From Albimonas donghaensis (GTDB lineage: Bacteria; Pseudomonadota; Alphaproteobacteria; Rhodobacterales; Rhodobacteraceae): a DNA stretch of 64,000 nt. The number at the start of each line of letters is the position of its first letter. Within the stretch, counting starts at the first letter, position 1. Below, one piece after another: positions 1,229-35,051 of the stretch. The notes under the pieces were generated by a model. It was not told where the DNA came from. It searched no databases and saw nothing but the letters and a program-made list of their open reading frames with translations. Where the stretch lies: NCBI RefSeq assembly GCF_900106695.1, contig NZ_FNMZ01000001.1, positions 310,001 to 374,000 on the forward strand, in the 5' to 3' direction. Position numbers and translations under genes: made by a program.

Positions 1229-3726
1229 CGGCGGGCGTCCCCTGCGAGGCTGGAGAAGGAGGGGGCGCGGTCGGGCGCGGTCTCGCCCTTGCGCCACCAG
1301 GCGGCGTTGCCCCGATCTCGGAGCGCCTTGCGTTCCTGCCGGCGCCAGAGGGTGCGCGCCTCGGGGTCGAGCATGTCCTGGAGCTGGTCCCAGACGAGCC
1401 GGTCGAGCGCGAGGCGCCCATACCAGAGGGACGAGCCGGGCGTGTAGCGGCGGGCGAGGTTCACCGCGTCGCGGCCGATCAGCGGGGCCTTGCCCTGGGC
1501 GGCGCGGTCGGCGTTGGAGGCGACGGCGCGCGCCACGTCCGCGCCCAGCCCGACCACCGGCCCGGCCAGCGTCTCGGCGAAGCCGCCGCCGGCGCGGCTG
1601 GTGGAGGCGGAAAAGAAGTCGCCGAAGATGCCGAGCCCGCCGCCCTGGAACACGGCCGCGCCCCAGAAGGCGGGATCGTCCATCGGCCGCGGATCGCGGC
1701 CCTTGGCGACTTCCTTGAGCTGCACCGATACCCCGCCCAGCAGGGTCAGGCCGGCCATCAGCTGCGCGGCGTAGAGCGCGCGGTTCATCGCGCCCGGCCG
1801 GGCCATGGTCCGGCGCACCTGGTTCAGCGTCAAGCTGAGCGCAAAGTTCTTGTACATGGCGGTCGAGCGGATCAGCTCGCCGTAGATGGTGCCCGGCGGG
1901 GCCTCGCCGATCAGCGACGTTCGGGCGTCCAGCGACACGGACGGAACCGCGAACTCCATCTGCTCTTCGATCAGCGCCTGGAGGCGGATCGCCAGCCCCT
2001 CGGCCTCGGCGTTCTCCAGCCCCGCCGCCAGCGCGGCCTCGCGCCAGTGCATCGGGGCGAGGAAGGTTTCGCCCGCGTCGGTCCGGAAGTGCAGGGCGGG
2101 ATCGGCGAGGCGGGTCCACTCGGCGTCGTCGAAGCCCCGCCCGCGCAGGATCGAGCGCAGGGGCTCGTCCACCTGGTCGAGCGTCCGGCCGGCCTGTTCG
2201 GCCAGCAGCCCGGCGAACTCCATCTGGAAGGCCAGCCGGTTCATGTCGGTCCAGCGTGCGAGGCCGCTGGCGCGCATGACGCCGCTCGCCAGCCGCTCGG
2301 TGATCTCGGGCGACCACACGTCGCCGAGATAGCGGGCGGCGGTGGAGCCCGTGTCGGCCAGCGTGTCGGCGATATAGCCCATGCGGGCGGCGGTCTCGCG
2401 GGTGGAGCCGCTGGCCATCAGCGAGACGAAGCGGGCGAAGACCTTGCCATGCCCGATCCCCACAGCGCGCGCGGCCATGTGCTGGGTCCAGAGGTCGGTC
2501 GGCGCGCTGAGAAGAGCGGAGCCGAGCTGCGCCGCGGTCAGCACGTTGCGCGTCCCGGCGAGGAAAGCGGCCATTCCGCTGTCGGCCGGATCGTTCGCGC
2601 TTCCGGTCAGGTGCGCCAGCATGGCCCGCGCCTGCACGGACGCGCGCTTCACGCGCCTTTCGGCCACCGGGTCCGCGGCCTGCGAGGCGACGCGCTGCGC
2701 GGTCTGGATCGCGTGTTCCAGCCCGGCCTTGGGATTGGGGCCGAGAACCCGCATCAGGGCGATGTCGCGAGCCATGCCGTCCAGGTGCGCCACGATGGCG
2801 TCGAAGGGGTTGGCCTGCCCGAAAGCGTCGTTATAGGCGAGCCAGCTGCTCGCGTCGCGGAAGTGCAGGACCCGGTGTTCCGCCCGCCGGTTCGCCAGCG
2901 CCGCGCCGCCGGGCATGAGCGAGGGAACCCGGTCATCCCAGCCGTGCGTCGTCAGGTTGGAGTAGATGTCGCGCAGGAAGCGGTCGGCTGCGGCGGCGTC
3001 AGGCGGCGCCCCGCGCGAACTGGCGAAGGGCCGGTCGGTCTGGTGATCGATGATCCGCGACCAGTCGAGCCGCGGCTGGATCTCCGCGCGCCAGGCGTCG
3101 AAGCCCGCCCGACGCAGGCGGCGGGGGTCATGGCTGTGCGGCAGGCCGAAATCCTCCAGCTCGCCGATGTCGCCGCCATGGGCGTTGAACAGGGTGCGCG
3201 CCCGCTCAAAAGCCTTTTGGACGGCGCCGGCCATGCGCGCGGCCTCGCCATTGCCCGAGCCCTCGCCATGCAGCTCGCGCACCACGTCGCCCAGCAGGGC
3301 GCGGTCGCGGGGCCGGCCGGTCAGGTCTCGGGCGTTGCGTTTCAGGAACTCGGGGATCATGCCGCGCAGCTGTCGGCTGATCGCGTCGCGGGTGGAGCGC
3401 ACGGCTTCCTGCGCGTGGCCGCGGCCCTCGCCACGCTCCAGCAGGCTTTTGACGGCGAGGTCCGGGCGTTCGGCCTGACCGACGAAATGCTGATTGGCCC
3501 GCATCCGCTGGAGCTGGGCGAGGACGGTATGCCGGCGGCTGGTCGCGGCGCGGGCCACCGACTTCTTCACGTCCTCCGCCGCCATCGCCGCGGCGGCGGC
3601 GTCGGGAGCGTGGCGGCGATACCGCTCGAACAGGTCCTGGTAGTCGCGCTGCGCGGCGGTCCCGCGCTGCGGGTCCACCAGGCCGGCGTCCATCGCGGAT
3701 TGCAGGCAGTCGAACAGGTCAGCCAT
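1225..3726 (-). CDS. Large internal virion protein of the prophage
   Basis: Encodes 833 residues. It lies between the polyvalent protein and the tail fibre, where T7-like phages keep large injected internal proteins. The N-terminal third is helical and charged. A stretch near residues 385-470 has hydrophobic helices. The C-terminal part contains phrases I know from phage proteins of many alphaproteobacterial prophages ('KGRDPRPMDDPAFWGAAVFQ', 'RRYTPGSSLWYGRLALDR'). It overlaps the upstream gene by 8 bp and the tail fibre by 4 bp. No enzymatic motif is evident. A role in genome ejection is inferred from position and size only. Confidence 0.65.
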   Translation of the reverse strand: MADLFDCLQSAMDAGLVDPQRGTAAQRDYQDLFERYRRHAPDAAAAAMAAEDVKKSVARAATSRRHTVLAQLQRMRANQHFVGQAERPDLAVKSLLERGEGRGHAQEAVRSTRDAISRQLRGMIPEFLKRNARDLTGRPRDRALLGDVVRELHGEGSGNGEAARMAGAVQKAFERARTLFNAHGGDIGELEDFGLPHSHDPRRLRRAGFDAWRAEIQPRLDWSRIIDHQTDRPFASSRGAPPDAAAADRFLRDIYSNLTTHGWDDRVPSLMPGGAALANRRAEHRVLHFRDASSWLAYNDAFGQANPFDAIVAHLDGMARDIALMRVLGPNPKAGLEHAIQTAQRVASQAADPVAERRVKRASVQARAMLAHLTGSANDPADSGMAAFLAGTRNVLTAAQLGSALLSAPTDLWTQHMAARAVGIGHGKVFARFVSLMASGSTRETAARMGYIADTLADTGSTAARYLGDVWSPEITERLASGVMRASGLARWTDMNRLAFQMEFAGLLAEQAGRTLDQVDEPLRSILRGRGFDDAEWTRLADPALHFRTDAGETFLAPMHWREAALAAGLENAEAEGLAIRLQALIEEQMEFAVPSVSLDARTSLIGEAPPGTIYGELIRSTAMYKNFALSLTLNQVRRTMARPGAMNRALYAAQLMAGLTLLGGVSVQLKEVAKGRDPRPMDDPAFWGAAVFQGGGLGIFGDFFSASTSRAGGGFAETLAGPVVGLGADVARAVASNADRAAQGKAPLIGRDAVNLARRYTPGSSLWYGRLALDRLVWDQLQDMLDPEARTLWRRQERKALRDRGNAAWWRKGETAPDRAPSFSSLAGDARR

Positions 3727-6700
3727 CGCGCGACCCTCCCGGTCGGCAAAAGGCCACCTGCTCCGCGAAGTCCTGGTCAGCGTCCAGGTCGCGCAGCACG
3801 TCCGACGCGCGCATTTCCACGCCGTCGATGGTCACGGTGAAGTCGCCCGCCGCAGCGTCATTGACTTGACCGGCAGGGGCGCCGATATTTGGGATGTCCC
3901 ATCCAGAGGAGGGATCTTCCATGCGGTTCGGAAACTGGGATTGGCGGCCCGCGGTGCTGGTGGGCGACAAGGCGTTTGCGCTGCTCGCGCCTGGCGAGGA
4001 CTGGTCGGAAGTTGACCGGCTCGACGTGGGGGCCACTGCGTCCGAGATACGCGACGAAGCCTTGTTCCGCGCGATATTCGAGCCGGAGTTCGGTTCGTTC
4101 GAACTCCCGAAAAGCGACTGAAGCGCGGGGTCAGACCGGGCCAGCGCGTCATTGTAGACGTCGAGCTGCTCCTGGTTGAGGCGCGCGATCTCGTCCGGAT
4201 CGGTCGACGAGCGGGCCTTGGTGTAGAGCGCCTGGCCGCGGGTTGATTTCGCCTCGATCATCGGCGCCGACCAAATCTGGATTTCCGCCAGCAGGCCGTT
4301 GTCGAGACGCAGCAGCACCTTTCGATCCACGAAGCCGGTTGCCAGCTTTCGGGTCCAGCCTTCGTCCACGAAGTCCAGTCCGGCCGCGCGAAAGGCGTCG
4401 ATGATGCCGTCAGCCTGCGCCGCGGTGTCGACCACGAAGCCCCCGCGGGCGAAGTCCGTCAGCTGAGTGATCCGCCGGTATCCTTTTCGATCCAGCTTTT
4501 CCTCGGTGGTCTCGCGACGCTTGATGCCGGGGTTCTTGAACTTCACTCCCAGTTCGCCGGACAGGCGCTCGCCAATCCTGGCGAGCTGCGCCTGCGCGTC
4601 GGGCGCGAGCTGGTAAAGCTCGTCGATGGTCACGAAGGGCTGGGCAGCGGAAAGCGCATCCGTCCGCTGCTTCACCTCCCGCAGACGTTCAGCCTCCCGC
4701 AACTCGGGAGCGTCCGTGTCGGTGGCCGTGGCGGGGTCTTCCGTCCGGGGCGTCGCTGTCGCCTGGCGCAGCTCGGCCGCGGACTGGTCATCCGCAGCCC
4801 TGGCGGCGGGCGACGCGGCTCCGCCGCGCCAGGCGGCGTCGTCGGCGCCGGCCAGGTCGATCAGCGCGGGTTCGTCGGAGGCGATGCGCTCGGCCGGGCC
4901 GGGCGCGCCTTCGGGCGCGGGCGCATCGTCCAGTCGGCGGGTCACGGCGTCGATCACGTCGAGAGGGCCGACCGGCGCGATCTCGTCCAGCAGCCCGCCG
5001 CCTTCGGCCCCGACGCGTCCGGCTTCATCGACATAGGCGCGCAGGCCGCGGGCGATGTCCTCGCGGCTGCGCGCGCGGGCGCCCCGATAAAGGACGCCGA
5101 CCATGCGCGCGGTCGCGGGATCGACGCCGCCGCCCAGCATGTCGTCCTGGGCCATCATGTCATCGAGCGCGCCGCGAACCGTCATGCCCTCGGCGCGGGC
5201 TTTCTCGCGCGCCTGACCGACCAGGCGAACCGCGCCGGTCAGCGCGTCGGTCAGGTCGTATTCGGGCCGCAGCCGGCCCTCGGCCGCGTCGGCGCGCAGC
5301 TGCGCCCAGGCGGGCGCGGCGTCGGTCATGGCGTCGATGGCGGCTTTCACGTCCCGCCCGCCTTCCTCGGTCATCGCCGCCACCAGGTCGGGGGCGTCGT
5401 AGCCGCGGGCGAACAACGCGGCCTGGAGGCGGGTGTGGCCAGCGGTGGACAAGCCGCCCTTGTCGGTCAGCAGCTCGCCGCGCTGGCCGGAGGGCAGGGC
5501 CCCTACCAGCGCGCGCAGGAAATCGCGGTTGCCGGGCGCGGCGATCCCGCCCGCCTCGGGGTCAAAGCGGGCAAGCACGTCCGGCGTCAGCGCCTCGGCG
5601 TCGGAGCGCGCCTGCTCGGACGGGCTCATGCGCTCCACGCTGTCCTCGTTGGCCTCCCGCACGAAGCGGCGCAGCTCGTCGGGGTCCAGGTCCGTGCGGC
5701 GGCGGGCGATCAGGACCGGCCGGGCCATGCCTTCGGGCACGTCGAAGCTGGCGCGGATCGTCTCGACATAGGCGGCGTAACGGTCGGGGAACTGGTCGGC
5801 CGCGTGCATCAGCGACATGACGCGGCCGTTACCGCTGTCGATCACGTGGTCAGCCCCGACCACGGGCGCGCCGTGGCTCGCCAGCGGCGAGGGCATGAGC
5901 AAGGCGGGATCGAGCGCCGCGGCCCGCTCCTTGACCTTGGCGGTCGGGGCGAGGCGGGATCGGTCGCGGGGCTGGCGGTCGCCCGAGGCGAGCGTCAGCG
6001 TGTCCATGTCGACCACTTCGTATTCGACCTGGACGCGGGTTCCGGCCGGCGTCGCCACCTCGTCGCCGGCGGTGTAGCCGCGGCGGGTCGCGGACTGGTA
6101 GGCGGCGCCCGGATCGGCGGCCTGGCCCATCTTGAATTCGGACCAGCGGCGAAGATCCTTGACGCTCCAGTGCTGGAGCGGCCGGCCCGCGAAGGTCACG
6201 TTGCGGTTGGCGTCGATCTGCGCGGCGGTCATCACCGATGTGACCGGCGCGTCCGGATCGGCCAGGAGCGCCCTGGTCGCGCCACCCGGCCCGAGGAAGT
6301 GCGCCAGGTAAAGGTTGGGCTCCGTCGCCTCCAGCCCCTGCGCGGCCAGATGCGCGGCGTTGTCCGACGCATAGGCGGCGGTCATCTCGCGGGACAGGGC
6401 GGGATCGGAGCGCAGCGCGAGAATTTCCGCCCGTCCTCGGGTGGCGGCGAGGTCCGGCCGATGGCGGGCGATCATGTCCAGCCAGGTCGCGTCGATGAAC
6501 TGGCCGGCCCCGGTGGCGCTGCTGCCGGGGTTCTTCGCGTTCGCGCGCCCGCCGCTCTCGACGCCCACGATCCGCCGGGACAGGCGGTCATAGTCCTGCG
6601 GGCTGGAGACGGGGGGCGGCGGCGGGACGGGTCGGCCCTCACGCAGGGCGACGGTGGCCTGATCGGTCGCCACCTCATGCTCGACCGGCCCGGCGGCGGA

Positions 6701-7450
6701 GGGGCGCGAGGCGTCGCCGGCCTCGCGCCCGAACTGCCGCATCGCCCAGCCGGTCCCGCGGACTGCCGCGACCGGCCCGGCGCCCAGGATCGCGCCGCCG
6801 GCGGCGCCAATGCCGATCTGCGTCAGCGCGTCCGGGTCCGGCTGTTCCAGCGCCTCGGCCGTGCGATACTGCGCGGGCAGCGCCAGCGCCTCACCAGCGG
6901 CCCCCAGCGCCGCCTCGGTGGCGAGAATGCGCATCAGCCCGCCCGTGCCGCCCAACGGCAGCATGGCGAGGCTGAGCGGGTCCGTCGCGGCGCTGCCCGC
7001 CGCGCCCAGGAACTCCGCCACCCCGGCGCCGCGCCCGCCCATGGAAAGCGTCTCGTTCGCGTCGTCCAGCTCGGCTTTCAGCTCGCGGTCGATCTGAGCC
7101 TGGAACGCTTCCTCGCTGATCGGCAGGGAGCCCCAGCGGCCGGGGTCCTCGGCTGCGGCGTTGGCCGCGGCTTCCAGCACCTGCTTGCGCAGGACGGCGA
7201 GCCCGCCGGGGCGGCGCTCCCATTCCACATGCGCGTCGCGGGTCATCGGCGACGGGGCCTTCACGCGGGCCAGCTGCGCGTTCACTTCGTCCAGCAGCTC
7301 GCGCTCGCGCTGGCCGCGGCGGTCCCAGCTGTTCTGGCTGATCGCGGCGCCGGTCCAGGCTGCGGCCGCGGTCTCGCCGAAGCCGGCGCGCGGGCGGGGC
7401 GCCGGGTTGAACGGCCGCGCCTGCGGCTCGGAGGGGAGAAAGAAGGTCAT
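3719..7450 (-). CDS. Virion polyvalent protein: lytic transglycosylase, DdrB-ParB-like and RelA/SpoT-like domains
   Basis: Encodes 1,243 residues starting at an ATG that overlaps the previous stop. Residues about 285-400 form an SLT/lysozyme-like domain; E298 in 'GVESGGRA' is the probable catalytic acid and 'GAGQFIDATW' follows. This domain would cut peptidoglycan during DNA entry. Residues about 470-640 resemble the DdrB-like ParB domain of phage polyvalent proteins ('DHVIDSGNGRVMSL', 'REANEDSVERMSP'). Residues about 945-1110 resemble a RelA/SpoT-type nucleotidyltransferase ('LLAEIQIWSAPMIEAK', with the conserved E of the E[VI]QI strand). Residues 1110-1200 are a Ser-rich linker that coincides with a gene on the opposite strand, and a short conserved-looking tail follows. 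Proteins of this type are delivered into the host; the effect on the host here is inferred. Confidence 0.75.
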   Translation of the reverse strand: MTFFLPSEPQARPFNPAPRPRAGFGETAAAAWTGAAISQNSWDRRGQRERELLDEVNAQLARVKAPSPMTRDAHVEWERRPGGLAVLRKQVLEAAANAAAEDPGRWGSLPISEEAFQAQIDRELKAELDDANETLSMGGRGAGVAEFLGAAGSAATDPLSLAMLPLGGTGGLMRILATEAALGAAGEALALPAQYRTAEALEQPDPDALTQIGIGAAGGAILGAGPVAAVRGTGWAMRQFGREAGDASRPSAAGPVEHEVATDQATVALREGRPVPPPPPVSSPQDYDRLSRRIVGVESGGRANAKNPGSSATGAGQFIDATWLDMIARHRPDLAATRGRAEILALRSDPALSREMTAAYASDNAAHLAAQGLEATEPNLYLAHFLGPGGATRALLADPDAPVTSVMTAAQIDANRNVTFAGRPLQHWSVKDLRRWSEFKMGQAADPGAAYQSATRRGYTAGDEVATPAGTRVQVEYEVVDMDTLTLASGDRQPRDRSRLAPTAKVKERAAALDPALLMPSPLASHGAPVVGADHVIDSGNGRVMSLMHAADQFPDRYAAYVETIRASFDVPEGMARPVLIARRRTDLDPDELRRFVREANEDSVERMSPSEQARSDAEALTPDVLARFDPEAGGIAAPGNRDFLRALVGALPSGQRGELLTDKGGLSTAGHTRLQAALFARGYDAPDLVAAMTEEGGRDVKAAIDAMTDAAPAWAQLRADAAEGRLRPEYDLTDALTGAVRLVGQAREKARAEGMTVRGALDDMMAQDDMLGGGVDPATARMVGVLYRGARARSREDIARGLRAYVDEAGRVGAEGGGLLDEIAPVGPLDVIDAVTRRLDDAPAPEGAPGPAERIASDEPALIDLAGADDAAWRGGAASPAARAADDQSAAELRQATATPRTEDPATATDTDAPELREAERLREVKQRTDALSAAQPFVTIDELYQLAPDAQAQLARIGERLSGELGVKFKNPGIKRRETTEEKLDRKGYRRITQLTDFARGGFVVDTAAQADGIIDAFRAAGLDFVDEGWTRKLATGFVDRKVLLRLDNGLLAEIQIWSAPMIEAKSTRGQALYTKARSSTDPDEIARLNQEQLDVYNDALARSDPALQSLFGSSNEPNSGSNIARNKASSRISDAVAPTSSRSTSDQSSPGASSANALSPTSTAGRQSQFPNRMEDPSSGWDIPNIGAPAGQVNDAAAGDFTVTIDGVEMRASDVLRDLDADQDFAEQVAFCRPGGSRDG
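3861..3889 (+). promoter_or_regulatory. Sigma70-like promoter for the embedded antisense gene
   Basis: TTGACT (3861-3866), a 17-bp spacer, then GATATT (3884-3889). The -35 matches 5/6, the -10 matches 4/6 and the spacing is ideal. Transcription would start near 3896, just before a strong ribosome binding site (3905-3914) and the ATG at 3921. It lies inside, and antisense to, the C-terminal coding part of the polyvalent protein, which is where a 'moron' gene would carry its own promoter. Confidence 0.6.
3921..4121 (+). CDS. Small antisense 'moron'-like protein embedded in the polyvalent gene
   Basis: Encodes 66 residues beginning MRFGNWDWRPAVLVGD. The ATG at 3921 is preceded by GAGGAGGGA with a good spacer, and by the promoter at 3861-3889. 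An earlier in-frame ATG at 3894 would fall before the predicted transcript start. The protein looks natural: Trp-rich N-terminus, hydrophobic 'KAFALLAPGEDW', acidic tail 'AIFEPEFGSFELPKSD'. The minus-strand frame over the same bases encodes only Ser/Asn-rich low complexity. The local GC is lower than that of its surroundings. I do not recognise the family. By analogy with morons it may be expressed from the prophage; an immunity or antitoxin role towards the adjacent RelA/SpoT-like domain is possible but speculative. Confidence 0.65.
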   Translation: MRFGNWDWRPAVLVGDKAFALLAPGEDWSEVDRLDVGATASEIRDEALFRAIFEPEFGSFELPKSD

Positions 7451-30850: not shown

Positions 30851-32527
30851 CTAGGGTCGAGTCAAAAGATTTTTAATCCGCGCCCTGACATTTTGAAATA
30901 CTTGATTTAAGTGAGTTTTTCCTGCTGCGCTCAGCAATCCCGTGTGTCCTACAGCATTTCTAACCGGCTTATAATTTACTGCATCAAGCCAAAGAGATGG
31001 ACCTTGGGGGGACTTAGAGCCTTCGGCCATCACCGCAAGTCCGTCCATGTCTATGTAGTATAGATCGTCATCCGCAGTTCTGATAGCCCAGCTTATGTTT
31101 GCTTTCTTAAGATTTTCTGATTCACGTCTTTTCCAATCGGCGGCGTCTTTTGTGGCGATAGGAGTTAGGGGAATGGATTTTTCAACCAAATATTTACGGA
31201 TCAAGTTCTCAGAGAGAAAGCAGTCAGCGTATGCTTGTAAATTATACTGCGCGTCATCTCGTAGTGATTCCAGCCATCTGTCAACTTTGTCTTTGTTTGG
31301 CTCGGCATCCTCTAGCTTGTAGTCATCTTTGGCTGCACTAAAAAGTTCACGGGCCTTGCGCTCCTTCTTGGTCTTCCGATTGTTTTCATCGTCGCCCTCA
31401 AGGCCCCGATCCAAGCGGAGTCCATCCCATTCATCAATGATTTGAGGAAGAAGATCGCGTTTGAGGTAGTCCATCAAGGATTGGAATTGGATGTCATCTT
31501 CTACCACACCCTCACGGCTGCTGGTGAAGGGATCGGTCCCCTCTCTATCCATGGTGTCGAAGTGTAATTGGCCGTAGAGATAGCTCTCGACAATTCTTTG
31601 GGTTGGGATGTGGCGAAGGAGATTCTTCTCACGGATGCGACCGTTGACGATAAGGTCGACTGTGGCGCGCTCATCCGTACCGGTAATCTTGAGGTGTCGC
31701 GGCTTTTCAACCGTGGCCAAGAAGCCTCGGATGCCAAGTTTGGTTGTCTTGGGTACTGCTGATGATTTCAGTCTATCGAGCGCGGCCACATAGCCGTCGG
31801 TGTAACCATTCACGATCCAGAGAAACTCGGTTGCTCTGGCCAAGTCACCCAGGTCGGCTTCGCTCACCTCCGTACCGTCCACAAAGATCTTGAATGCCTT
31901 GTCGTGGAGTGAAAACTTGAAGCTCATGGCGAGCATCTTGCGAATGTGCGCCGGAGAGCTGCGCAGTTTCTCCTTTGTTGCGTCAAACACTATGATGGTG
32001 CCGTGCTCGTGCCCCTGCTGGAGCTTCTCAATTCGGCCGAGGTCTGGCTGCTCAAGCGGATACTGATCGGCGGTATTGTCGCTCTTGATCGCCTTATCCA
32101 GATCGGCGTTATCGATGACACCCCCGACGTAGCCTGCACCGGTAGTCTTTGAATAAATCGAAACCCGGTTGGCGCAGGATAGCAGGGCGAGCTTACCGAT
32201 GCCTTTGGCACCAATGAACGGTCGCCCTCTATCGGTCGCCTTTTTGCCGTCCTTGCGCTTAGAATAACCGATCTTCAGAAACTTCTCTTGGAAGTCTTCA
32301 GCGGTCATGCCTAGGCCATCGTCCTTGATGGAGAAGGTGTTCCCCTCCTTGTCGATCTCGATCCAAACGTTCTGGGCTTCGGCGTCCCAAGAGTTTGATA
32401 CCGCTTCCGCGATAACGGTGATGAAGTTGCGGTATAGGTTGCGGCCCAAGTGGTTTAGGACGCTGAGCGAAATCTCAAAATGGAAAGGCTTAGGTGCACC
32501 GTCCGACAACGTCATCTCCATGTTCAC
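30851..32527 (-). CDS. GHKL (MORC/Hsp90-like) ATPase of a restriction-modification-type system
   Basis: Encodes 558 residues. The ATP-binding fold is clear: N-box 'IAEAVSNSWDAEAQ' (E41, N45), G1 'KDDGLGMT' (68-75) and G2 'GAKGIGK' (106-112). A transducer-like region follows, then a charged coiled-coil part (about 390-440) and a C-terminal domain with no obvious nuclease motif. Its start overlaps the cytosine methyltransferase gene by 38 bp. GHKL ATPases of the MutL/MORC group paired with DNA methyltransferases are known from bacterial restriction systems. The GC is far below that of the surroundings, indicating recent acquisition. Confidence 0.8.
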   Translation of the reverse strand: MNMEMTLSDGAPKPFHFEISLSVLNHLGRNLYRNFITVIAEAVSNSWDAEAQNVWIEIDKEGNTFSIKDDGLGMTAEDFQEKFLKIGYSKRKDGKKATDRGRPFIGAKGIGKLALLSCANRVSIYSKTTGAGYVGGVIDNADLDKAIKSDNTADQYPLEQPDLGRIEKLQQGHEHGTIIVFDATKEKLRSSPAHIRKMLAMSFKFSLHDKAFKIFVDGTEVSEADLGDLARATEFLWIVNGYTDGYVAALDRLKSSAVPKTTKLGIRGFLATVEKPRHLKITGTDERATVDLIVNGRIREKNLLRHIPTQRIVESYLYGQLHFDTMDREGTDPFTSSREGVVEDDIQFQSLMDYLKRDLLPQIIDEWDGLRLDRGLEGDDENNRKTKKERKARELFSAAKDDYKLEDAEPNKDKVDRWLESLRDDAQYNLQAYADCFLSENLIRKYLVEKSIPLTPIATKDAADWKRRESENLKKANISWAIRTADDDLYYIDMDGLAVMAEGSKSPQGPSLWLDAVNYKPVRNAVGHTGLLSAAGKTHLNQVFQNVRARIKNLLTRP

Positions 32528-33572
32528 TGGATAAGATCAAAGCACCGATGGCCTCCGCCAGTGAGACGGGGACCGCATTGCCGATCCATCGCCCGACTTC
32601 CGAGAACGAGACCTTCTGACCTGGCGGCAGGAAAGCGTAATCCTGCGGGAACGTTTGGAGGAGAGCGGCTTCGCGAAGGGAGATTGCTCGATCTTGGTCA
32701 GGATGCCCAAACCGGCCGTTGCCGAACCCGTAGCATTGGGTCGTCATGGTTGGGGAAGGTTGGTCCCATTCCATCCGCGCGTACACCCCAGGGTAAGTCC
32801 CGCCGGACGCTCGTTGGTGGCACTTGGCGCGAAGCTCGAATGGCCAGTCTCGCCATGTGCCACCTGGCTTGGACGACTTGATACGTTCTAAGTTCTTCTC
32901 GGAAAGTGATGCTGCGCTGTGAAGCGGGTCGCGGGGATGAACTTCGCCAGCTTCAATTTCTGGCAGGGACCGGATGGCGTCTCTAACTGACAGTGGCTGG
33001 TCGTGAGTTGGCTTAAGTTCCGGAAGTTGGCGCTCCCGTGATGCAATCAGCACTAGCCGCCGCCTCTTTTGCGGTACGCCAAATTCCTCGCAGCGGACCA
33101 CGTTCCACTGGATATGCTCGTAACCTGCGGCCTTCAGCGTGCCCACGAAGCCAGCGAATACGGTTCCATCTTTATACTTGAGTAGGGCTGGAACGTTTTC
33201 CATGGTTACAAAGTCGGACTTCACCTCGGCAGCTAGGCGAGCAAACACAGCGACAAGCTCCCATCGAGGGTCGGCCTCGTATCTATGCTTGTATGTAGAG
33301 AACGGCTGGCACGGGGCGCAGCCGGCAAGTACCGAAGGCACCGCACCACTGAAATGGCCCTGCAGCTCCTGGGCTGTCAGCTTCGCTACATCGCGGGCGT
33401 AGAAGGTGGCGTTATTGTTCTTCTCGTAGGCATACTTGCAGTTTCTATCGACGTCGTAACCAGCCTGTATAGTAAGGCCAGCTCGCAATAGGCCGTGGCT
33501 CAATGCTCCAACGCCACAAAACAAATCTACTACTTCACCAATTGCACGGGGTTCTTCGTTCATATTTTTCAT
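32490..33572 (-). CDS. C5 cytosine-specific DNA methyltransferase
   Basis: Encodes 360 residues with the standard motif order: I 'DLFCGVGALSHG' (16-27), IV 'GCAPCQPFS' with catalytic C88, VI 'MENVP' (124-128), VIII 'QKRRRLVLIAS' (168-178), IX near 'ERIKSSKPGG' to 'SPTMTTQC', X 'GNAVPVSLAEAI'. It protects or marks host DNA by methylating cytosine; the target sequence cannot be read from the protein. It is the first gene of a two-gene unit with the GHKL ATPase. No separate restriction endonuclease gene is visible. Confidence 0.9.
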   Translation of the reverse strand: MKNMNEEPRAIGEVVDLFCGVGALSHGLLRAGLTIQAGYDVDRNCKYAYEKNNNATFYARDVAKLTAQELQGHFSGAVPSVLAGCAPCQPFSTYKHRYEADPRWELVAVFARLAAEVKSDFVTMENVPALLKYKDGTVFAGFVGTLKAAGYEHIQWNVVRCEEFGVPQKRRRLVLIASRERQLPELKPTHDQPLSVRDAIRSLPEIEAGEVHPRDPLHSAASLSEKNLERIKSSKPGGTWRDWPFELRAKCHQRASGGTYPGVYARMEWDQPSPTMTTQCYGFGNGRFGHPDQDRAISLREAALLQTFPQDYAFLPPGQKVSFSEVGRWIGNAVPVSLAEAIGALILSSEHGDDVVGRCT

Positions 33573-34976: not shown

Positions 34977-35051
34977 TGGTGAGCGGGGTGGGTATCGAAC
35001 CCACGACCAGCTGATTAAAAGTCAGCTGCTCTACCACTGAGCTACCCGCCC
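34977..35051 (-). tRNA. tRNA-Lys(TTT), likely attachment site
   Basis: The full cloverleaf reads on the minus strand from 35051: acceptor GGGCGGG pairing with CCCGCTC (one G-U), D-stem GCTC/GAGC, anticodon stem GCTGA/TCAGC with loop CTTTTAA (anticodon TTT), T-arm GTGGG-TTCGATA-CCCAC, discriminator A, and CCA encoded. The prophage side lies directly 3' of it and the host side 5'. This is the usual geometry for integration into the 3' end of a tRNA gene. Confidence 0.95.

Follow-up and report, generated by a model that had tools for sequence, protein, structure and literature searches.

In the window, a stretch of 64,000 nucleotides of Albimonas donghaensis (contig NZ_FNMZ01000001.1, positions 310,001 to 374,000), a prophage gene for a polyvalent protein contains a second gene on its opposite strand. 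The 66-residue product of this gene probably serves as an antidote, or immunity protein, to the RelA/SpoT-like domain in the polyvalent protein, its gene being nested antisense in the gene of the toxin. The small gene stands beside nearly every close relative of the domain that was found, which makes its product most likely the toxin's antidote. Comparison among related loci establishes the nested family, its linkage to the domain, the constraint on its frame, the promoter pattern, the modelled folds and the replacement of the cassette. The features concerned are, in window coordinates:

3921 to 4121, plus strand: nested antisense gene of 66 amino acids (ATG at 3921, stop TGA at 4119-4121), predicted from homologues, model and constraint to encode an immunity (antidote) protein.
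3861 to 3889, plus strand: predicted sigma70-like promoter TTGACT-17-GATATT, with the -35 element at 3861-3866, a 17-nt spacer and the -10 element at 3884-3889.
3905 to 3913, plus strand: Shine-Dalgarno sequence AGAGGAGGG, 7 nt upstream of the ATG at 3921; similar sites precede most homologues, whose starts were picked partly by their ribosome sites.
3719 to 7450, minus strand: phage polyvalent protein of 1243 amino acids, with a ddrB-ParB domain at residues 469-584 (PF18763, E 9e-34) and a transglycosylase-like region at about residues 294-485.
4109 to 4660, minus strand: RelA/SpoT-like synthetase domain of the toxSAS type, residues 931-1114, a predicted toxin by profile, Tas1 match and model.
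3920 to 4123, minus strand: Ser-rich linker, residues 1110-1177, opposite the nested gene, supported by constraint; none was seen in relatives without the RelA/SpoT-like domain.
3722 to 3859, minus strand: C-terminal tail, residues 1198-1243, with 62% identity over 45 residues to L025 and kept in relatives with other contents of the slot.
3860 to 4819, no strand assigned: swappable cassette, residues 878-1197, with toxin domain, nested gene and promoter; its edges are the ends of BLAST alignments, accurate to a few residues.

An earlier note on this DNA had claimed an independent plus-strand gene here, and its promoter, its ribosome site and its 66-residue product over residues 1110-1177 are read directly in the window. 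The minus-strand frame of 1243 codons, said to remain open across the small gene, indeed runs from 7450 to 3719 without interruption. An alternative start at 3894 would yield 75 residues; family alignments point to 3921. The third codon positions of the two genes lie opposite one another, with position 1 of the small-gene codons opposite position 2 of the large-gene codons in 68 of 68 nested loci. The openness of the small frame within the window is unremarkable and by itself no evidence of function: of 5000 versions of the linker with its synonymous codons shuffled, 74.6% kept the 66-codon frame free of stops, for which reason openness was rejected as evidence, and longer stop-free runs, up to 144 codons, occur in the same phase of the same reading frame. 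The promoter match is mildly unusual (one match within positions 3000-5000, against a mean of 0.1 in shuffles). Such openness would suit a chance frame opposite the Ser-rich linker that has no function, and because the first two codon positions are common to both genes, conservation of the sense frame could carry some conservation of the antisense frame. With openness expected by chance, the case rests on comparison among relatives. There the recurrence of the gene, the frame-specific constraint, the promoter pattern, the convergent and same-strand homologues and the absence of the gene where the domain is lacking make a chance frame extremely improbable. As far as such comparison reaches, recurrence in related phages, differential constraint and recurrence of the promoter lift the nested gene beyond chance.

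A search with the single protein in 295 genomes of the family found one clear relative beyond the window, in genome G137 (40% identity, E 1.9e-6), at the same place in a homologous polyvalent protein, antisense and in the same phase. The same layout is present in genome G220, in a fragment; the single-protein search missed this member and is limited in sensitivity, as is a profile search of 385 genomes of the class, which gave one credible relative, beside the domain, and a further match that was dismissed for the three stops inside it. The string of ribosome site plus start common to G137 and G220, searched as DNA in viral contigs, occurred at 21 loci. At 13 of them a family member is encoded opposite a stop-free frame, again in the same phase (one, L029, cut by the contig end), and the other 8 are chance matches. 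The large proteins were inspected for 12 of the 13 members, omitting L036, whose small protein is the same as that of L027; the RelA/SpoT-like domain directly preceded the linker in all 11 with enough sequence.

The alignment of these domains (A5, 11 rows), used as a query, retrieved 62 loci from viral contigs and 12 from genomes, 74 in total. The scan is blind to the small gene, yet all 11 seeds came from loci carrying it, so that close relatives of such loci are favoured. In this seed-biased scan a homologue of the small gene or a positional counterpart adjoins the domain in 73 of the 74 loci: it is nested antisense in 68, convergent in 2 and downstream on the same strand in 3, and is lacking in 1. 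The homologues that the earlier note had suggested be sought form a family that recurs beside the domain. Several of the loci are copies of each other, and L047 is the window's own prophage; the large frame runs off the contig in L072, L095 and L120, and in L095 the small gene is cut before its start. A non-redundant set at 90% domain identity, from which the partial L122 and L123 were excluded, comprises 42 domains, with 37 nested, 2 convergent and 2 same-strand genes and 1 domain with none. The first small-protein profile was seeded with some of the loci that it scored. Genome loci outside a second profile (A6) score independently, some strongly (for example L114, 6e-24; L118, 6.5e-18; L116, 2e-15; L119, 1.7e-15) and others more weakly (L123, 1.3e-7; L122, 2.9e-5; L120, 3.1e-4). 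The named hosts are Alphaproteobacteria together with one gammaproteobacterial and one unclassified proteobacterial metagenome-assembled genome; most loci are contigs of uncultivated viruses.

At the convergent loci the polyvalent frame ends shortly behind the domain, leaving an overlap of just 43 bases in L063 and 73 in L116, with the small gene intact. At the same-strand loci (L073, L075 and L123) there is no overlap, and the small gene follows the domain in the usual order of toxin, then immunity gene. The small protein is kept in these loci although the strand opposite it is largely or wholly untranslated there, and its convergent and same-strand members argue that the small frame represents a protein family in its own right that stays with the domain. 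The independence claimed for the nested gene is borne out by the recurrence of the family and by its separate existence at these five loci, three same-strand and two convergent. In L073 the domain is followed by two copies of the small gene in tandem on its own strand (4692-4961 and 4877-5228, plus strand), the second split over two frames. In L123 a frameshift or a sequencing error splits the synthetase domain itself (3965-4458, plus strand) over two frames, and the same-strand small gene lies downstream of it. In a tree the two viral same-strand loci group together (100/99) next to nested members, and the two convergent loci stand apart; drawn on a midpoint root, the tree does not settle in which order the three arrangements arose. 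A moron, a gene for host fitness that is unrelated to the toxin and came to its place by happenstance, would also fit the promoter-like site, which faces away from the late operon. Such a hitchhiker should occur elsewhere, and in the sampled genomes (295 of the family and 385 of the class, within the sensitivity of the searches) the family was seen only beside the domain; the probability of a moron is accordingly minimal. The earlier note had left the choice between a moron and a safety gene. Its immunity or antitoxin gene is favoured by the linkage in 73 of 74 loci of the seed-biased scan and by the Tas1/Tis1 parallel described below, and its generic moron is not.

The two strands of the linker were compared in alignments of the small and of the large protein. 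In a small-protein alignment of 44 rows, which omits L063, L073 and L075, the mean BLOSUM score was higher for the antisense than for the sense frame in 883 of 946 pairs of linkers. Within the synthetase domain the antisense frame of the same phase was ahead in 1 of 703 pairs, and between 2 and 10 stops interrupt that phase in every one of the 38 domains. A sense-protein alignment (43 rows, additionally omitting L023), which favours the sense frame, still gave the antisense frame as the better one in 470 of 903 linker pairs, and in 327 of 362 pairs with a mean identity of at least 0.3. Second codon positions are usually slow to change. Among disjoint close pairs, sense position 1 changed 41 times and sense position 2 changed 60 times in the linker (16 pairs), and the respective counts in the domain were 202 and 121 (11 pairs; Fisher p 1.3e-4 for linker against domain). 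Given slow second positions, the linker evolves as an antisense gene and the domain as a sense gene. These patterns indicate that constraint is stronger on the antisense frame in the linker and on the sense frame in the domain, and that the embedded frame is under selection of its own. The opposite outcome, in which residues 1110-1177 are conserved as protein and the plus frame is broken, had been named as fatal to the claim of a gene and is contradicted, save for the most diverged pairs of one alignment (see below).

The promoter recurs as well. At least 9 of 12 positions match TTGACA-16/18-TATAAT upstream of 31 of 39 distinct family members, the 39 upstream regions having been drawn from 43 nested rows; the same score was reached by 55 of 1560 control windows (3.5%), taken from the same strand of the same loci at a distance of 900-3000 bases. 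The best spacing was 17 in 29 of the 39 regions, and the commonest -10 element found by a simple pattern was TATATC (18 of 43 rows). A promoter-like site that recurs opposite a coding region would be expected if the functional product were an antisense RNA that silences the toxin gene, as in type I systems, and not a protein. The antisense frame, however, is conserved as protein and is modelled confidently, and in three loci the small gene is on the same strand and hence not antisense, which renders an RNA very unlikely as the functional product. As the sole product, antisense RNA was rejected: Rfam gave no match, and the RNA fold is barely better than that of shuffles (z -1.14). A role of the RNA beside that of the protein is conceivable.

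By its profile matches, the domain before the linker is a small alarmone synthetase of the toxSAS type, with Tas1 as its nearest relative. Among solved structures the profile matches Tas1 first (6ox6_A, E 9.4e-20), followed by the exported SaSAS (1.1e-5) and RelQ-type enzymes. Tas1 is a (p)ppApp maker. The AlphaFold 2 (AF2) model of the domain (predicted local distance difference test, pLDDT, 95.4; predicted template modelling score, pTM, 0.89) has a RelA/SpoT synthetase fold and matches Tas1 6ox6_A with a Foldseek E of 2.1e-8 and a VIA Z of 16.1 (root-mean-square deviation, rmsd, 2.9; 163 aligned). Ordinary small alarmone synthetases reach a Z of 15.5 and are tied with Tas1, so that the fold leaves the product unfixed; the tRNA-modifying CapRel (Z 13.1) and FaRel2 (Z 7.7) match less well. 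Ten residues are invariant in 38 members (K47, D69, R72, D99, D112, G122, E126, Q128, K138 and G142), which we take to be of the active-site type and catalytic. Nine of them pair with the same residue in the alignment with Tas1, and D112 pairs with Gly. The Pfam model RelA_SpoT matches weakly, in 8 of 38 domains (best E 0.0038), and NCBIfam and PADLOC gave no match to the domain. The domain adjoins the linker and the small gene, as the earlier note had stated.

The small protein is modelled with a pLDDT of 95.1 and a pTM of 0.80. When its top 98 Foldseek chains were re-aligned, the second rank was taken by 6ox6_B, which is Tis1, the immunity protein of the same Tas1 complex (Z 2.4, rmsd 3.1, 56 residues aligned). 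Alone, this match is too weak a ground for homology; it becomes suggestive because Tis1 partners Tas1, to which the toxin domain is most closely related. The best Foldseek E was 1.0 in the PDB and 0.98 in a library of viral structures. Antitoxins of the ATfaRel2 type are not in the Foldseek lists of the small model, which excludes nothing. Pfam gave scattered weak matches for the family (best E 0.034) and none for the window's own protein, and NCBIfam and PHROGs gave none; with no convincing model in these collections, annotation pipelines may miss the small protein. A tblastn search of annotated phages and plasmids at E up to 1 also found no match to it.

Several observations speak against an antidote. 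The Tis1 match has a Z of 2.4 at 5% identity and is tied with unrelated rows; a profile of 47 small-protein members retrieved no Tis1 chain from the PDB sequences at E up to 10, nor is 6ox6_B among the 49 Foldseek matches of the small model at E up to 10. In the sense-protein alignment the more diverged pairs favour the sense frame, the antisense frame being better in just 143 of 541. Six nested members (L076, L078, L079, L080, L088 and L091) gained no score in the first small-protein profile and owe their assignment to where they lie, to their phase and to a ribosome site. One domain of the 74, in L074 (4001-4705, plus strand), has no recognisable small gene beside it and possibly has another type of immunity or none. 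Owing to the seed bias, distant domains without a small gene may have escaped the scan, and a wider search of plasmids met a pair of domains without one (L127). Four synthetase domains had no match among annotated phages, and the domains matched 5 plasmid records weakly, of which that from Photobacterium was the one inspected. On its plasmid, pDA100 of Photobacterium sp. DA100, two RelA/SpoT-like proteins are encoded in tandem (L127, 2282-4126, plus strand) with no small gene. By eye, their N-termini resemble signal peptides, like those of reported exported synthetases, and the PLSDB table lists no gene there.

Linkage alone would suit any dedicated partner, and with so weak a Tis1 match the small protein might be real and tied to the domain and yet serve as a partner, chaperone or activator of the synthetase, or as a regulator of late genes. 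The small partners reported for Tas1, Apk2 and FaRel-type synthetases are immunity proteins or antitoxins (PMC11782079, PMC11699363), and Sec-exported synthetases are described as having no adjacent immunity gene (PMC12691689), the exported-looking L127 pair likewise lacking the small gene. We regard such a partner as unlikely, if less so than an RNA or a chance frame, and prefer the antidote.

The slot in which the cassette of domain and predicted antidote gene lies was surveyed with a profile of the part of the polyvalent protein that precedes the domain. The profile, of 5 rows with one lacking the domain, found 13 viral and 7 genomic loci. The synthetase domain is present in 5 of these 20 (L128 and L142, which are the window itself, L131, L132 and L141), and the small gene in all 5; in the other 15 neither the domain nor the small gene was found (profile E up to 0.01). 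The slots of these 15 hold an ART-like, a P-loop-kinase-like or another domain, or a short spacer; the names other than RelA/SpoT are our presumptive assignments. Among the printed slot parts, L129/L143, L134/L136 and L138/L144 are apparent copies, and L147 matches in part and over a short length. By eye, 13 of the 15 retain an acidic tail with a late Cys. A relative from the same genus aligns with the window protein at residues 548-877 (47%) and 1198-1242 (62%) and nowhere between; the unmatched stretch corresponds to window positions 3860-4819, with toxin domain, linker, nested gene and promoter, and an ART-like domain stands there instead. The earlier note had supposed an in-frame insert that codes on both strands, and the 15 relatives that lack domain and small gene alike, together with this ART-like replacement, agree with it; the linker, by eye, is likewise not seen in any of the 15. 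ART-like domains occupy the C-terminal slot of L129, L143 and L133, one of them in the window's own genus, and in L145 (1501-3888, plus strand) a P-loop kinase-like domain, presumably zeta-toxin-like, takes the place of the synthetase. Four slots that hold something else (L129, L133, L139 and L145) showed no comparable antisense gene; antisense frames with a ribosome-like site occur in 3 of the 4, none of them family-like or convincing by eye. An exchangeable toxin domain on a conserved carrier, as in this slot, is a mark of polymorphic toxin-immunity systems, and so is an immunity gene just downstream of that domain; a candidate adjoins the domain in 73 of 74 loci, but in 68 it is on the opposite strand inside the gene. 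The one-strand operon of type II toxin-antitoxin systems is not found: toxin and small gene are read from different strands in 70 of the 74 loci and in the window itself.

Toxicity, neutralization, timing and delivery are the parts of the antidote account that we infer. The domain would be a Tas1-like synthetase, toxic by transferring pyrophosphate from ATP to an adenosine nucleotide as its closest sequence relative suggests, and the polyvalent protein, judged by its family, would be packaged in the virion and injected with the DNA. The antidote gene would lie between the toxin domain and the conserved C-terminal tail, antisense and with its own sigma70-type promoter. A promoter of its own on the other strand would allow the antidote to be made in the lysogen or the producing cell independently of the late operon. 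There it would bind the toxin, perhaps at the active site as Tis1 does, and restrain the synthetase until delivery into a new cell. Toxin and antidote would occupy a single piece of DNA and pass, as one cassette, from one polyvalent protein to another. Since both lie side by side on the two strands of one gene, recombination that imports the toxin domain would also import the antidote with its promoter. It is conceivable, though rather less than an even bet, that the cassette is self-sealing in this way and that transcription of the antidote gene also opposes that of the toxin gene, as a double lock.

The surroundings of the pair are those of phage late genes. The large protein has the marks of a phage polyvalent protein in its 1243 residues, its several domains, PF18763 and its PHROG matches, which include a transglycosylase family. 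Its neighbours on the minus strand encode virion, internal virion and tail proteins, a major head protein, a head-tail adaptor and the large terminase subunit, and an IMG/VR viral contig of 42,722 bases is identical across both genes. The last 8 bases of the polyvalent gene (3719-3726) are also the first 8 of the virion protein gene that follows, with its ATG at 3726; overlaps of this kind are typical of coupled late genes. Near the prophage end lies a gene for a phage-type DNA methyltransferase (32490-33572, minus strand), and just past it a tRNA-Lys gene (34977-35051, minus strand), which may mark the attachment site.

Tas1/Tis1, a type VI effector with its immunity protein (PDB 6ox6), is the nearest solved relative of the domain by sequence and, tied, the top one by fold, and its small partner is of similar size with a weak fold match. 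In the window, by contrast, the toxin domain lies in the interior of a phage polyvalent protein, the small gene is nested antisense, and no sequence similarity to Tis1 was detected. The (pp)pApp-making toxSAS enzymes are reported to be blocked by Tis1-type domains at the acceptor site, partly on the evidence of structure predictions (PMC11782079). The MuF-Apk2 toxins of prophages are reported to have adjacent non-enzymatic immunity proteins as well as Aph1 hydrolases, and resemble the present pair in the fusion of a prophage structural protein to an alarmone-synthetase toxin with immunity adjacent (PMC11699363, PMC12226406). The carrier here is a ddrB-ParB polyvalent protein and not MuF, and the small gene is usually nested antisense. 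Some polyvalent proteins of mobile elements, multidomain like the one described here, contain RelA/SpoT domains for which a role in conflict was suggested; the terms 'immunity protein', 'antisense' and 'overlap' are absent from the main text of that study (PMC5512222).

Protein-coding genes embedded antisense in others are exemplified by nog1, asa, laoB, ano and aatS. A review of such genes notes widespread homologues for aatS, describes individually analysed genes of this kind as typically younger than their host genes, with many embedded frames conserved beyond the genus, and calls the function of proteins coded antisense inside prokaryotic genes disputed (PMC7457138). The present case differs in that 37 of 42 non-redundant domains carry the nested gene, which has a specific predicted link to its host gene. 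In the titles and abstract openings of the open-licence PMC literature, where absence is weak evidence, no toxin gene with an immunity or antitoxin gene nested antisense was recognised. Toxin-immunity pairs and antisense overlaps are each of known kinds; an immunity gene nested antisense in its own toxin gene, in one phase, in many phages and in one cassette, was not found in the literature so searched. The nested gene recurs widely, with a promoter-like site, a confident model and a predicted task, and this makes the function and evolution of antisense overlap directly testable. The findings suggest that phage polyvalent proteins are polymorphic toxins that come with immunity. They also hint at a way in which a toxin domain followed by a conserved tail could nevertheless be transferred together with its antidote.

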